64,000 bases of DNA from Massilibacillus massiliensis (GTDB lineage Bacteria > Bacillota > Negativicutes > FLKF01): the NCBI RefSeq assembly GCF_900086705.1, contig NZ_LT575483.1:125166-189165 (forward strand). The letters are read 5' to 3'. The notes below the pieces were generated by a model that ran no database searches, was not told the DNA's origin, and worked only from the letters and a program-made list of their open reading frames with translations. Position numbers and translations under genes: made by a program. Positions 52,742 through 63,081 of this stretch are shown piece by piece. Each line of letters opens with the position of its first letter. Within the stretch, counting starts at the first letter, position 1.

Positions 52742-53134
52742 TTACTTTTTTTGAGCAATAGCTATGCAGTCGCTCCGTGGTATCATCTTGGTTTCCTGTG
52801 TCCTACCCATAGAATCGATGACGGGATAACTCATCCCCCCATGACAATGAGCTGAAACAGCCTTGTGAGGCTCTTTGTATTCTAGTTCTTTCGCCATATC
52901 AATCTTGAGGATGTGATCCAGTAAACTTCGCTTTACTTCCCTGACTCCTTCAAATCGAACTTCGTCATTTTTGACGGAGTTGAAATCAATACCTTCGGTA
53001 AATCCATATTCACACATACGATCAAACCATTTTGTATATTGGGTACCGATTCCTAAAAACTCATGAAGCATTCTCCCACTAATGATTTGTTCTTGACTAC
53101 TATTGATTTCTACCTTTAATAATTGGTTGTCCAT
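52742..53134 (-). CDS. AntA/Bro-N-like chimeric antirepressor
   Basis: A 130-residue protein. Residues 1-85 are an AntA/AntB domain (QIISGRMLHEFLGIGTQYTKWFDRM, GIDFNSVKN, DHILKIDMAKEL). From there it changes to EPHKAVSAHCHGGMSYPVIDSMGRTQETKMIPRSD, which resembles the core of Bro-N/other phage antirepressor domains and normally follows a different N terminus. The C terminus is short. The join suggests recombination between antirepressor genes. Antirepressors titrate the prophage repressor to induce lytic growth. GAGGGGAATG precedes the start. Confidence 0.65.
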   Translation of the reverse strand: MDNQLLKVEINSSQEQIISGRMLHEFLGIGTQYTKWFDRMCEYGFTEGIDFNSVKNDEVRFEGVREVKRSLLDHILKIDMAKELEYKEPHKAVSAHCHGGMSYPVIDSMGRTQETKMIPRSDCIAIAQKK

Positions 53135-53244: not shown

Positions 53245-53624
53245 CTACAGAAAGCCATCTACTTCACTAGTATAAATTTTGTACATGCTATGATAAGTGC
53301 TACCATGGTTGCCATTTGCAAGGTGTCGCCAAAATTGGCGTAACCTTATATAGTCAATATTTTTAGAAAATCTATAATCGCACGTATGATTAAACCATGT
53401 AGTGTAGGTAGGTAGTGTGAAGCCATCACGGTTCATGAGATAAGCTTTCTGTGGTCTTCCATAAGAATCTGACATTGATGTTTCGAAGAACATCAGTCCA
53501 AAATTGGGCACATCTTCTTGCATGTCTTTAATGTCTCTAAGTACATGTTTATGTTCTTTCCCAAAATCTTCTGCTACTTTTCTACTTGATGTTACTGGTT
53601 GTTTTGAGGATGTACGTAAGTTGA
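53245..53624 (-). pseudogene. Rha-AntA chimeric gene without a usable start
   Basis: The open frame begins after a stop near 53626 with SSKQPVTSSRKVAEDFGKEH..., a typical pRha-domain start, but no initiation codon precedes it; the first in-frame ATG (53523) is well inside the domain. It continues NFGLMFFETSMSDSYGRPQ and AYLMNRDGFTLP (Rha), then switches to an AntA-like TTWFNHTCDYRFSKNIDYI tail. So it is a 5'-broken Rha gene fused to an AntA piece. Rha proteins are phage regulators that block growth when overproduced in some hosts. Confidence 0.6.
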
Positions 53625-54200
53625 TTTAAAGAATAGGTCAGCCGAATTTTCGACTACCCCAATGGTTTCTTTAATTGAATCCAACACATGCTTATGGAGT
53701 TTCAAAGAATAGGTTGGCTGACTTTTCAGCTTACGAGAATTTTAGGGTTTCTCTTACCATTAGTAGCAATGTAGGCTGACTTATGAAATAATAGAGCCGA
53801 ATTTTCGCTGATGAGATTTTAATGTATTGAATCATTGTAGCTTGAATTATAAAATAGTCAGAGCGGAATTTTCCGCCTTGATAATTTCACGGATATTTTC
53901 CAATACATCTTTATGTAGCTTCCCAAAATCCTCTGCTACTTTTCTACTTGATACTACTGGTTGTCCATTTTCAATTGTCACTAAATTGTTCAAACGATTG
54001 TCTCAAAGAAAAGATCGGCACAATTTTGTGCTGTACTAAGAATTCTTGAATTTTATCTAATTTATGCTTATGTTGTTTCGAATAACATTGAATTCAGACT
54101 TGAATTTTCTATTTGACCTGAGGTAAACAATGTTTCCTTCAGCTTTTCTTCATCTACACTTTTTAACATACGACTAATATTATAAGAACCCTCATATCTC
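53590..54200 (-). pseudogene. Array of tandem, overlapping Rha (and one Bro-N-like) gene fragments
   Basis: Reading the minus strand in several frames reveals at least five further pieces of Rha-type coding sequence, each 20-50 codons. From right to left: a Bro-N-like piece (YNISRMLKSVDEEKLKETLF), AQNCADLFFETIV with LHKHKLDKIQEFL, NNLVTIENGQPVVSSRKVAED with KLHKDVLENIREIIKAENSAL, ENSALLFHKSAYIATNGKRNPK, AEKSANLFFET, and KLHKHVLDSIKETIGVVENS with ADLFFKSTYVHPQNNQ. Junctions often fall at ENSA or LFFE. About 39 bases at 53563-53601 recur at 53926-53964 with few changes. None is a whole gene. Confidence 0.65.
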
Positions 54201-54293: not shown

Positions 54294-54500
54294 TAGAACA
54301 TTATTATAATCTTATCAAATTGTATATTTATTACAGACTAAGTATCTCTAATGTATAACATTGGAATACCCATGTAGTGCCACGTAGTGAGTAATCATGG
54401 GGAAATCAATGATTGATATTAAATTGTCTTAGGAACACATGTTAGGAGTTACGCCAACTGCGGTTGGCGACTCGCTATGCTCGTGCAAGGACGTTTACTC

Positions 54501-55861
54501 GGGAGTGTAAAATAATCTGTGTAAGTATAAAACTTGCACAGATTATTTTAATATTGGATAATAAAAAATATTAAACACGAAAAGGACGAAAAAATGGCTA
54601 GAAAAAACTCTGAACAAGAACAGCTTGCCCAAGAAATTATTGCAAAATATCAACCAAAATCTGTCGAAGATATGCAAAATGCCTTAAAAGATATTTTCGG
54701 ACCGATGTTCCAAGCAATGCTAAAAGGTGAATTAGATCACCATCTTGGTTATTCAAGTAATGATCGTGGTGAAAAAGAATCCTCAAATCGTCGTAATGGG
54801 TATTCACAAAAAACTCTTAAAAGTTCTTTGGGTTCTATTCCAATTGATGTTCCGCGTGATCGTCAAGCGACTTTTAAGCCACAAATTATACCCAAACATA
54901 AAACCAATGTATCTGACATTGAGCAAAAAGTTTTAGCGATGTATGCGCGTGGACTCAGTCAACGAGATATAGCCGCAACGATTGAAGATATCTATGGTTT
55001 TGAAATATCTCATGAACAAATTTCAATCATCACAGATAAAATATTAGAAGAGCTCGATCAATGGCAAAAACGTCCCTTAAATCCATTCTATCCATTTGTT
55101 TTTGTCGACTGCATGTACGTGACAATTCGAAAAGATTATGAAGTTAAGAGTTGCGCAGTTTATACGATTCTTGGGTACAACATGGATGGTCATAAAGATA
55201 TCTTAGGATTATGGATCAATGAAAATGAAAGTAAGCATACCTGGATGCAAATCTTCGATGAGCTCAAGGCTAGAGGAATACAAGATATCGGATTCATCTG
55301 TATGGATGGATTGAGCGGATTAGAAGATGGAGCTAAAGCAATATTTAAAGACGTAAATGTACAGAGATGTATCGTGCATTTAATAAGAAATTCTATAAAA
55401 TATGTTCCAAGTAAGGACTATAAGGGATTTACAGCCCAGTTAAAGAAAGTATATGGAGCTTCAAGTTTAAAAGCGGCAATTGCGGAATTTGAGCGATTTA
55501 AAGTGGCGTGGGCAAACTATCCTGGAGCCGTTAGCGTATGGGAACGGAATTTCTCACATATAGAGCAGCTTTTTAATTACGGTAGTGCAGTGCGAAAGAT
55601 TATGTACACAACAAATGCCATAGAAAGCGTGAATTCAAGTTTCCGAAAAGTGACAAAAAAAGGAGCGTTTCCAAATGAAAACGCCATACTGAAAGTATTG
55701 TATTTACGAGTTACAGAACTTTATAAAAAATGGCATGATCGCCCAGTTCTCAATTGGTCTATGGTTCGAAACCAACTTTCAATTGATACTAGGATTCAGC
55801 CGATTTTTCAAAAATATGAACAACACTTTTAATCTTGTTACACAAAATTCTTGACACTCCC
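54501..55861 (+). mobile_element. IS256-family insertion sequence, complete
   Basis: 1361 bp with imperfect terminal inverted repeats opening GGGAGTGT and sharing TGTGTAA further in, one transposase gene, and a perfect 9-base target duplication CGTTTACTC at 54492-54500 and 55862-55870. The hairpin TAAAATAATCTGTG...ACAGATTATTTTA at about 54507-54552, upstream of the gene, has terminator form and probably blocks read-in transcription. Confidence 0.93.
54594..55832 (+). CDS. IS256-family transposase (MutA/transposase_mut)
   Basis: A 412-residue mutator-type transposase. It has GELDHHLGYSSND in the N-terminal part, then the DDE set: Asp in FVDCMYVTIR, Asp in ICMDGLSGLEDG and Glu in TTNAIESVNSSFRKVTKKG. 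The cysteine/histidine CIVHLIRNS region between them is typical. The gene is intact and all catalytic residues are present, so the element may be mobile. CGAAAAGGACG precedes the ATG. Confidence 0.95.
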   Translation: MARKNSEQEQLAQEIIAKYQPKSVEDMQNALKDIFGPMFQAMLKGELDHHLGYSSNDRGEKESSNRRNGYSQKTLKSSLGSIPIDVPRDRQATFKPQIIPKHKTNVSDIEQKVLAMYARGLSQRDIAATIEDIYGFEISHEQISIITDKILEELDQWQKRPLNPFYPFVFVDCMYVTIRKDYEVKSCAVYTILGYNMDGHKDILGLWINENESKHTWMQIFDELKARGIQDIGFICMDGLSGLEDGAKAIFKDVNVQRCIVHLIRNSIKYVPSKDYKGFTAQLKKVYGASSLKAAIAEFERFKVAWANYPGAVSVWERNFSHIEQLFNYGSAVRKIMYTTNAIESVNSSFRKVTKKGAFPNENAILKVLYLRVTELYKKWHDRPVLNWSMVRNQLSIDTRIQPIFQKYEQHF

Positions 55862-55908
55862 CGTTTACTCATAATAAAATTAAGGCTGTTATATATACTT
55901 ATGTATTA

Positions 55909-56025
55909 CCTTAGATATTCCTTTGTGTATCTTTGTAACTCATAGATTAACTTATGATTGTCCCCGAAGGGGTTATACATAAGAATTGCTATGTAATACA
56001 AAGTGATTCAAAGGATTACCTAAGG
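55909..56025. other. Long nested stem-loop (structured non-coding DNA/RNA)
   Basis: Arms 55909-55937 and 55997-56025 pair over 29 positions with six mismatches (CCTTAG...TTTGTA). Inside are CTTATG / CATAAG (55951-55956 with 55978-55983) and CCCC-GAA-GGGG (55962-55972), so three stems share one axis. It lies in a 640-base gene-free stretch (55871-56512) beside a helicase-like gene. It might be a replication origin feature or an RNA; a MITE-like element is another option. Confidence 0.55.
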
Positions 56026-56082
56026 AGTATCTTAAGTGTTCTTTGGTAGGTTCATAACTTAACTCAATATATTTGATTAATC

Positions 56083-56128
56083 ATAACCGAGCGTAGCGAT
56101 GGTTATCGGTATGCGTTAACGCATACCG
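56083..56128. repeat. Stem-loop and perfect 22-bp palindrome
   Basis: ATAACC / GGTTAT (56083-56088 with 56101-56106) followed at once by a perfect 22-base palindrome at 56107-56128 centred on GTTAAC. Further right, GGAAGGT-TTG-ACCTTCC lies near 56439-56460. The palindrome can form a cruciform or bind a dimer. Confidence 0.65.
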
Positions 56129-56512
56129 TATAGCTTCGTTTCACTTGCTATAGATTTTATATTTACTTATGATTCAGTTCCTTAATAAAATACCAAGGAT
56201 TACCCTAATATCCTTTTAGATAATACAATAATATTTCAATGATAATCCGCCCTTGGCAGTATTGCATTGTATTTCTATTGTTATATCTAAATGTTTCTAG
56301 GATTAACCTTGGTAGTTTATGTTTTCCTTGAGTTAAAATTTTAGTTGTACTTGATATATTTCTATGTTCTTCTATGTATCTCTTATATTCTAATACCCGC
56401 ACCCCTTCAGCCCTTATATTTCGCGGGGTCTTTGAGCCATTTGGAAGGTTTGACCTTCCAATAATCATTATCAATTAGCTCCGATACTCAGAAACACTCT
56501 TTTGAGGATCTC

Positions 56513-61888: not shown

Positions 61889-62452
61889 TTAATAGAACTG
61901 TCCCACTTTTGCAGATTCTCCAATGATTTCAACATTGATTGCATTGGCGCACTTAGGAAATACTCGTGCATCATCCCCATGTTTCCCAAGTGTACTATTG
62001 AATTGATTTGTAGTTGCAATAGCATTCAATCGATGTTCGATCCAGTCGGGTGTTCTACCTTGCTTAGTCCATGTCTTAACTGCACGTTCATGGCTACGGC
62101 TAATACCAAGTTCTGGGTTAGCATCTTCTTCGAGTCTTTCAAAGAATACCTGGTTGACATACATATGTAATTCTGGTGACAGGTACTTGGCATACGCCAG
62201 TGCAATTTGAGGATGTGCGAAGGTGCCTCCTGTGCGTCCACGTTTGGTGTTTAAAACAGTATTCACAGTACTGTTTTCTGCTTTAACTAGTGTTTTAATA
62301 AATTCCTGACTTGCTTCTTGGCTAATCCAAAATCTTACCTGTTGGTTAGGATTCTTTCCGCTTGCTTTCCATAGGTCAGTCATTGATACTCTGTCTTTGT
62401 CATCTACTCTTATTTTTGTACTGTTGAATTCTAATGGTTGTAGGTTGGTCAT
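61889..62452 (-). CDS. KilA-N domain protein (phage antirepressor-type), probably truncated
   Basis: A 187-residue protein with a KilA-N domain: KIRVDDKDRVSMTDLWKASGKNPNQQVRFWI, GGTFAHPQIALAYAKYLSPELHMYVNQVFFERLEED, then DWIEHRLNAIATTNQFNSTLGKHG and FPKCANAINVEIIG. The C terminus stops soon after the domain (ESAKVGQFY), shorter than many relatives, so the 3' part may be lost. The ATG at 62452 is preferred; an AAACGCAA-TT-TTGCGTTT palindrome (62457-62474) overlaps the upstream sequence and could affect initiation. Function as antirepressor is by analogy. Confidence 0.75.
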   Translation of the reverse strand: MTNLQPLEFNSTKIRVDDKDRVSMTDLWKASGKNPNQQVRFWISQEASQEFIKTLVKAENSTVNTVLNTKRGRTGGTFAHPQIALAYAKYLSPELHMYVNQVFFERLEEDANPELGISRSHERAVKTWTKQGRTPDWIEHRLNAIATTNQFNSTLGKHGDDARVFPKCANAINVEIIGESAKVGQFY

Positions 62453-62505
62453 AGGTAAACGCAATTTTGCGTTTAGTAGTTACCAAAGTGACCAGCACGG
62501 AGCCG

Positions 62506-62611
62506 GAAAATCGTTTTAGAGAATCCAAAAGTGGATTCTCATTTTTTTTTGCAGTTGCTTAAGATAAAGAAATCATGAGAACGCAGTTTTGCGTTTTCTA
62601 AAACGATCTTC
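62506..62611. repeat. Nested inverted-repeat element with two inner hairpins
   Basis: Outer arms 62506-62523 and 62594-62611 pair at 16 of 18 positions (GAAAATCGTTTTAG...). Inside are GAGAATCC-AAAAGT-GGATTCTC (62519-62540), which is followed by a nine-T run, and GAGAACGCA-GTTT-TGCGTTTTC (62577-62598). An AACGCAA/TTGCGTT palindrome recurs nearby at 62457-62474. It lies between the KilA-N gene and the Rha/IS fusion. The function is unknown; a small cruciform/MITE or an attenuator are options. Confidence 0.6.
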
Positions 62612-62623
62612 ACAAATGAAAAT

Positions 62624-62790
62624 CTAGATAGAACACAGTTCATTATTCCCATAAATGTGCAACACCAATAATATCGGGTTCACTCTTAATTGTTTTTTAC
62701 AAGTACTAATGAAGAAATCGGTGAGTCCAAAATTGGACTGTCCTAATATTTCCATATACCCCTGAATATCTCTCAGTAGCTGCTTATTTT
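62624..62790 (-). pseudogene. Rha fragment fused in frame to IS3 OrfA
   Basis: The reading frame 62624-63007 begins as IS3-family OrfA (EKRIRREYTKEFKQQMVTLHASGKPASE, to about residue 76) and then changes into RDIQGYMEILGQSNFGLTDFFIST, which matches the middle of a Rha protein, followed by an unrelated tail CKKQLRVNPILL with likely frameshift in the preceding A-run. So a deletion joined the transposase gene to a Rha gene. It is a remnant, though a chimeric 127-residue protein could be made. Confidence 0.6.
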
Positions 62791-63081
62791 GTTTTCTTAA
62801 AGCAATTAATTCTTTTTCTTCAGGGGTTCGGTTGTCGGCTTCTTTAAAAGAGCCGGTTTTATTGAATTGCTTTACCCATTTATGAAAAGTTGAAGCTGTT
62901 AATTCATATTCGCGAATGATTTCACTCGCTGGTTTACCACTGGCATGTAAGGTTACCATTTGTTGCTTAAATTCTTTTGTGTATTCTCGTCTAATCCGTT
63001 TTTCCATATCACTGCCTCTTTTCTTTTTTCTATTTTAGCAGCTCCTTAAAAAAAACTGTCCAGTTTATTGTAGCCTATCCA
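62780..63081 (-). mobile_element. IS3-family remnant, left end and most of orfA
   Basis: On the minus strand the left end TGGATAGGCTACA starts at 63081, matching the intact element at 47496, followed by orfA codons 1 to about 76. orfB and the right end are missing, except that a short GACAGTCCA near 62730 is also found at the intact right end and may be chance. It disrupts an AntA-domain gene at 63082. Confidence 0.8.

Follow-up and report, generated by a model that had tools for sequence, protein, structure and literature searches.

The fragment array on the minus strand at positions 53245-54200 of the window (the whole 64,000-nucleotide stretch of the Massilibacillus massiliensis genome analysed here) is a decayed mosaic in which five or more rha specificities are combined. 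We consider it likely that its fragments are segments of rha genes carrying the recognition helix together with a DNA palindrome, that the Rha protein reads this palindrome as a site in its own gene, and that the chain was joined as a mosaic at short homologies and decayed afterwards. The pattern is visible in this array because several specificities lie side by side.

Three-frame translation and frameshift-tolerant alignment recovered seven consecutive pieces from several rha genes in three frames, flanked by the tail of a Bro-N domain on one side and by two AntA pieces on the other. The sequence-only reading had described at least six Rha-type pieces laid end to end, a description that alignment scores and Pfam confirm, and translation of all frames against family profiles recovered Rha, AntA and Bro-N pieces alike. 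Five stretches aligned to three Rha proteins with scores of 241, 119, 116, 79 and 52, and none of 15 dinucleotide shuffles scored above 46; the two shorter pieces (54124-54071 and 53742-53700) are recognised by shared words and by the direct repeats D1 and D2. In the labels used here, N denotes the N-terminus, H the helix motif HxxVxxxI and E the segment that follows the motif, with its ENSA or NFG words. Read from high to low coordinate, the chain runs Bro-N tail, E1, H2-E2, N3-H3-E3, E4, E5, H6-E6, N7-H7-E7, AntA-like piece and AntA/Bro-N gene, all on the minus strand. The Bro-N tail at the upstream end of the chain (54112-54169) has 82-84.5% DNA identity over ~58 nt to phage Bro/antirepressor genes. 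E1 (54071-54124) is a Rha loop remnant, ENSSLNSMLFETT, seen in the frame 2 translation with the shared word LFET and joined to H2. H2-E2 (53993-54087, score 79) consists of a helix piece, HKHKLDKI, and a loop, QNCADLFFETIV, with a frameshift between them, and N3-H3-E3 (53837-53993, score 116, Pfam pRha 2.1e-6) covers Rha residues 1-53 from a TTG codon, with the helix HKDVLENI. Two loop pieces follow, E4 (53736-53830, score 52; SENSALLFHKSAYIATNGKRNPKIL) and E5 (53700-53742, direct repeat D2 at 70%; AEKSANLFFETP), then H6-E6 (53595-53711, score 119, 69% identity to a Vagococcus Rha) with the helix HKHVLDSI and the loop VENSADLFFKSTYVHPQNNQ, and N7-H7-E7 (53413-53614, score 241), which spans Rha residues 11-73, has the helix HKHVLRDI and ends at NRDGFTL. 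Fused in frame behind this last piece is the AntA-like piece (53248-53413, Pfam AntA 0.0046); Pfam finds Rha and a weak AntA match in the 53523-53245 ORF, and Rha homology ends near residue 71 of this Rha/AntA ORF in most homologues. The gene beyond it (52742-53134, 130 aa) combines an AntA domain (Pfam 4.1e-19) with a partial Bro-N domain (0.0071), and both the AntA/Bro-N and the Rha/AntA chimeras noted earlier are thus backed by Pfam.

Every piece stops at or before Rha residue 73, and none retains the part beyond it. At each junction the sequence leaves one piece shortly after its E and resumes at an H, an N or a further E, and frames are broken and interrupted by stops throughout. By profile and alignment the fragments are N-terminal domains of the Rha family (PF09669), with matches of 64 bits (E 6e-17) and 28.7 bits in a translated search of the genome, the second reaching 32.1 bits together with its frame neighbours (cut-off 29.9). 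Unlike members of that family they are truncated, frame-broken and chained, and none is an intact gene that has both a start and the region following the N-terminal domain. A near-identical repeat, previously given as 39 nt recurring 363 bases apart, is present but differs in size and spacing, being 61 nt long at 89% identity with copies 362 apart. An assembly error is an unlikely source of the array because the pieces share one orientation and similar chains are present in other genomes.

The sequence-only reading had missed that every piece shares a palindrome position, and also that a further Rha piece lies elsewhere in the window. Aligned with one another, the pieces all retain one shared position of the gene, occupied by a palindrome of the form NNNN-AAAATT-NNNN, intact or degraded. 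It is degraded in E1, perfect in E2 (GCAC-AAAATT-GTGC, 54018-54031) and present in E3 as GCGG-AAAATT-CCGC (53863-53876). E4 contains a degraded palindrome of the GCCG type, AGCGAAAATTCGGCT (53795-53809), with one base lost in one arm, and E5 contains GCTG-AAAAGT-CAGC (53717-53730). The near-palindrome of E6, GTCG-AAAATT-CGGC (53641-53654), belongs to the GCCG type and has identical arms in the intact gene L012; that of E7, GCCC-AATTTT-GGAC (53496-53509), belongs to the GTCC type. The AntA-like piece carries CGCC-AAAATT-GGCG (53327-53340), which reads ANFGD in one frame, and the AntA gene carries CGTC-ATTTTT-GACG (52963-52976). The array holds at least five half-site types within ~0.7 kb, three of the sites being perfect. 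The further Rha piece, LLRDIQGYMEILGQSNFGLTDFF, is fused in frame to an IS3 OrfA (62624-63007, minus strand) and contains GTCC-AATTTT-GGAC (62725-62738).

Intact rha genes of phages and prophages from several phyla carry the palindrome too, mostly 36-75 nt behind the helix codons, and beyond what the protein sequence forces. Among 142 diverse genes (<80% identity), 63 hold within the coding sequence an AAAATT or AATTTT core flanked by a stem of 4 bp or more, where resampling of synonymous codons yields a mean of 2.0 and a maximum of 6 in 100 resamplings; control stretches further downstream hold one in 2/565. Genes without either core often show the predicted half-sites around another A/T core, a few (L028, L160, L176, L177 and L182) have the predicted site upstream instead, 145-281 nt before the helix codons, and about 40% of rha genes have no site in the stretches searched. 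The cognate palindrome occurs once per genome, within rha, in LBR48, 4995_1 and Aster. A comparison with known RNA families gave no match above chance.

The bases of the site follow three residues of the predicted recognition helix. With the helix written H-h1-h2-V-x-h5-x-I and the half-site b4 b3 b2 b1, b1 adjoining the core, b4 is C when h1 is D and G when h1 is K, Q, R or N (61/62); H, N and D at h2 go with C, T and G at b2 (61/63); and at h5, R goes with C and E, Q or A with G at b1 (61/63), these fits being those of the set in which most of the rule was seen. Phage phiFL1A added V at h2 with A at b2, and K at h5 was likewise added from one phage, the full rule for b1 being C for R or K and G for E, Q, D or A. 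This rule was fixed in writing before it was tested on new viral genes (L267 on), and because the first loci had been found by helix-based patterns, the query for the test was placed outside the helix. The 36 new genes agreed with it in 21/22 cases at b2, 18/19 at b4 and 17/19 at b1 (17/18, 14/15 and 14/16 for the new viral genes minus four already inspected). For 124 distinct genes with perfect sites, a total that takes in the earlier sets, the fits are 121/123, 117/121 and 114/124. Phage LBR48 has the helix HRDVLRAI, for which GCGC-n6-GCGC is predicted, and 4995_1 has HQHVLRDI, which goes with GTCC.

Since the genes share ancestry, related pairs with differing helices were compared, and where different bases were predicted they were as predicted in 51/54, 136/139 and 89/95 cases (alignment rows were slightly unequal and identities are approximate). 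In the pair L131/L343, which was aligned directly, the neighbouring sequence is ~90-100% identical and the helix codons differ, HKHVLETI standing with GCCGAAAAATCGGC and HKNVIQSI with GCTGAAAAATCAGC; the site passes from GCCG-AAAAAT-CGGC to GCTG-AAAAAT-CAGC by one base per arm, both changes being synonymous. The comparison of such genes supports specificity swapping in live relatives. In the window, three of the helices agree with the rule: HKDVLENI of N3 predicts GCGG with all three bases as found, a combination of helix and site shared by the intact gene L325; HKHVLDSI of H6 fits its G(T/C)CG, and HKHVLRDI of N7 its G(C/T)CC. HKHKLDKI of H2 breaks the rule with GCAC. Because a frameshift separates the helix half from the loop half and GCAC is the type accompanying an HKV helix in phiFL1A, H2 and E2 may come from different genes.

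From an alignment of 40 Rha N-terminal stretches, AlphaFold2 predicts helices at 16-22 and 27-40, a loop and wing strands (pLDDT 88). Helix 27-40 begins at the H of HKDVLENI, and its residues 2, 3 and 6 correspond to h1, h2 and h5, positions that usually contact bases in helix-turn-helix proteins. The codons of the loop that follows this helix contain the palindrome, and this loop is likely to be tolerant of changes. A Foldseek search against the PDB returned no significant fold match, most of the top matches being winged-helix regulators, and a sequence search returned no solved Rha structure.

AntA genes resemble rha genes in this respect: 43 of 58 (<80% identity) hold such a palindrome inside the gene, versus 1.3 by synonymous resampling. 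They follow a pattern of their own, in which YKDWF goes with GCTC, YNDWF with ACTC, YAKWF with CGTC and YTKWF with AGTC; the AntA gene of the window, with YTKWF and CGTC arms, is one base off this pattern. Across the AntA genes L347-L426, the bases of the self-palindrome appear to track the residues around YxxWF.

We infer from these sequences that the proteins Rha and AntA each recognise a binding site located within the gene that encodes them. The fragments, the palindromes, the covariation of helix and site and the lack of any other rha in the genome are computed, and DNA binding, autoregulation and the mechanism of joining are proposed on top of them as follows. Each fragment would be the part of an rha gene around the recognition-helix segment of an N-terminal winged helix-turn-helix domain, with the palindrome placed in the loop codons right behind that helix and read by it. 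Rha would bind this site in its own gene, most simply limiting its own expression, and because the target travels inside the gene as a neighbour of the helix, one short exchange could swap helix and site together. The chain would have grown as several rha, Bro-N and AntA genes that differ in specificity were joined repeatedly at short homologies, the joins lying within ~15-60 nt of the palindromes, and decay in a degraded prophage would have come after. The idea of repeated recombination that swaps specificity had been raised before, and part of it gains ground here, from rha pieces of different specificity joined at short homologies and from the joint change of helix and palindrome in live, near-identical genes.

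Accumulation of sites at the palindrome spot is recurrent, and is therefore not only a matter of decay, because multiple sites also occur in other genomes. Brucella pseudintermedia has a second chain of truncated Rha pieces (L203:4769-5999) with the sites CCCC, CCCC and CCTC. A Gallionellaceae metagenome assembly has an intact rha frame (L198:4302-5270) with about eight palindromes of mixed specificity, some imperfect, placed in frame in the loop between helix and wing, and L080, L117 and L183 have two sites each. The Brucella chain continues, without a change of frame, into an ORF for a serine recombinase. A search of viral contigs for dense arrays by a DNA pattern (two helix blocks 115-236 nt apart) gave chance matches only.

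Ordinary decay, which the sequence-only reading had named as the alternative, would mean that random deletions at short repeats reduced a series of antirepressor paralogues to fragments, the palindromes being inherited with no role in joining. We regard this as possible, if not the account that we would choose. The locus has decayed: besides the broken frames and stops, an IS256-type transposase (54594-55832) adjoins the array, IS3 copies and a truncated IS3 OrfA lie in the window, and XRE-type regulators and tail-like proteins complete the markers of a degraded prophage; tandem rha genes, moreover, are known in phages (L017, L097 and L164). What argues against decay as the whole explanation is that every piece keeps the palindrome position and always lacks the C-terminal part, and that in-frame accumulation is also seen in the intact rha gene L198. 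A pure deletion model requires about seven tandem rha genes, a number seen in no relative, the most seen being two full-length copies. Decay after repeated joining fits better. The genome (4.0 Mb) has no close relatives in the comparison set; DNA of 150 class relatives, phages and plasmids matches the array over short stretches only, and the sequences open to searching contained neither a second strain nor a DNA-level relative of the locus. By eye, the IS256-type element extends over 54500-55863 and shows inverted ends together with a target duplication of 9 bases, CGTTTACTC. CCTTRG-like words recur in the AT-rich, non-coding stretch 55870-56480, which may serve replication or regulation.

If the palindrome acted in RNA, as a hairpin in rha mRNA read by Rha or by the ribosome, one would expect a co-varying stem within the coding sequence, as is found. 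We nevertheless set this reading aside as improbable because the core flips orientation: GCCG, CCCC and GCTC stems occur with both AAAATT and AATTTT, two orientations that are equivalent in duplex DNA and not in RNA. In addition, some predicted sites precede the gene, and the varying bases match residues 2, 3 and 6 of the predicted recognition helix. We find it very improbable that the chain is kept as a decoy, its sites of several specificities soaking up the Rha of incoming phages; the density of site types and the similar mixed series in the live gene L198 would suit such a role, but several sites are degraded and the neighbourhood is a decaying prophage. That the fragments are active donor cassettes diversifying an expressed antirepressor of this genome, as had been suggested, is hardly credible, for all their partial copies with shared ends and the helix-site swapping in live relatives, because the expressed acceptor gene of pilS/vls-type silent donor systems is missing from the genome (a translated search found no intact rha and no other Rha match above 14.5 bits) and the frames are broken.

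The mosaic origin that we favour can be set beside several known systems. Domain shuffling among viral regulators of the KilA-N, Bro-N, AntA and Rha types was reportedly described by Iyer and co-workers in 2002; the chimeras of AntA, Bro-N and Rha seen here are of this kind, whereas the exchanged unit is smaller (a recognition helix with its DNA site) and the pieces are joined in tandem, out of register. In autoregulators whose operators lie in the coding sequence, as in the putative DNA-binding protein Rha, a palindrome is found inside the gene; unlike theirs, the rha site lies in the loop codons behind the recognition helix and co-varies with it over several phyla, and the embedding is found in two families, Rha and AntA. 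In the open-access literature searched we found no description, for Rha, of a target, an in-gene self-site or a helix-base rule. Capture of a DNA-binding domain between competing mobile elements is documented for Odn and RepA in ICP1 and PLE, where, as proposed here, a domain and its site are exchanged between mobile elements; there, in contrast, the domain is partnered with a nuclease and the site serves the parasite as its replication origin (PMC8263062).

Rha is common in phages and poorly understood, and the residue-to-base rule would make its target predictable from sequence in hundreds of phages. The rule suggests that Rha regulators may act first on their own gene, and it offers a mechanism by which phage antirepressor loci could swap specificity while retaining self-control. 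A bolder and, in our own estimate, rather unlikely extension is that Rha and AntA are self-addressed modules in which the target, encoded in the codons after the recognition helix, forms one unit with specificity and moves and changes with it, mixed chains such as those of the window and L198 being records or working banks of the sites of competing phages. Elsewhere in the window, a KilA-N-like gene (61889-62464, minus strand) has two upstream palindromes of the ACGC-AAAATT-GCGT type, at 62459-62472 and 62581-62594, the second with the core AAAACT, which suggests that similar sites may be used by related regulators.
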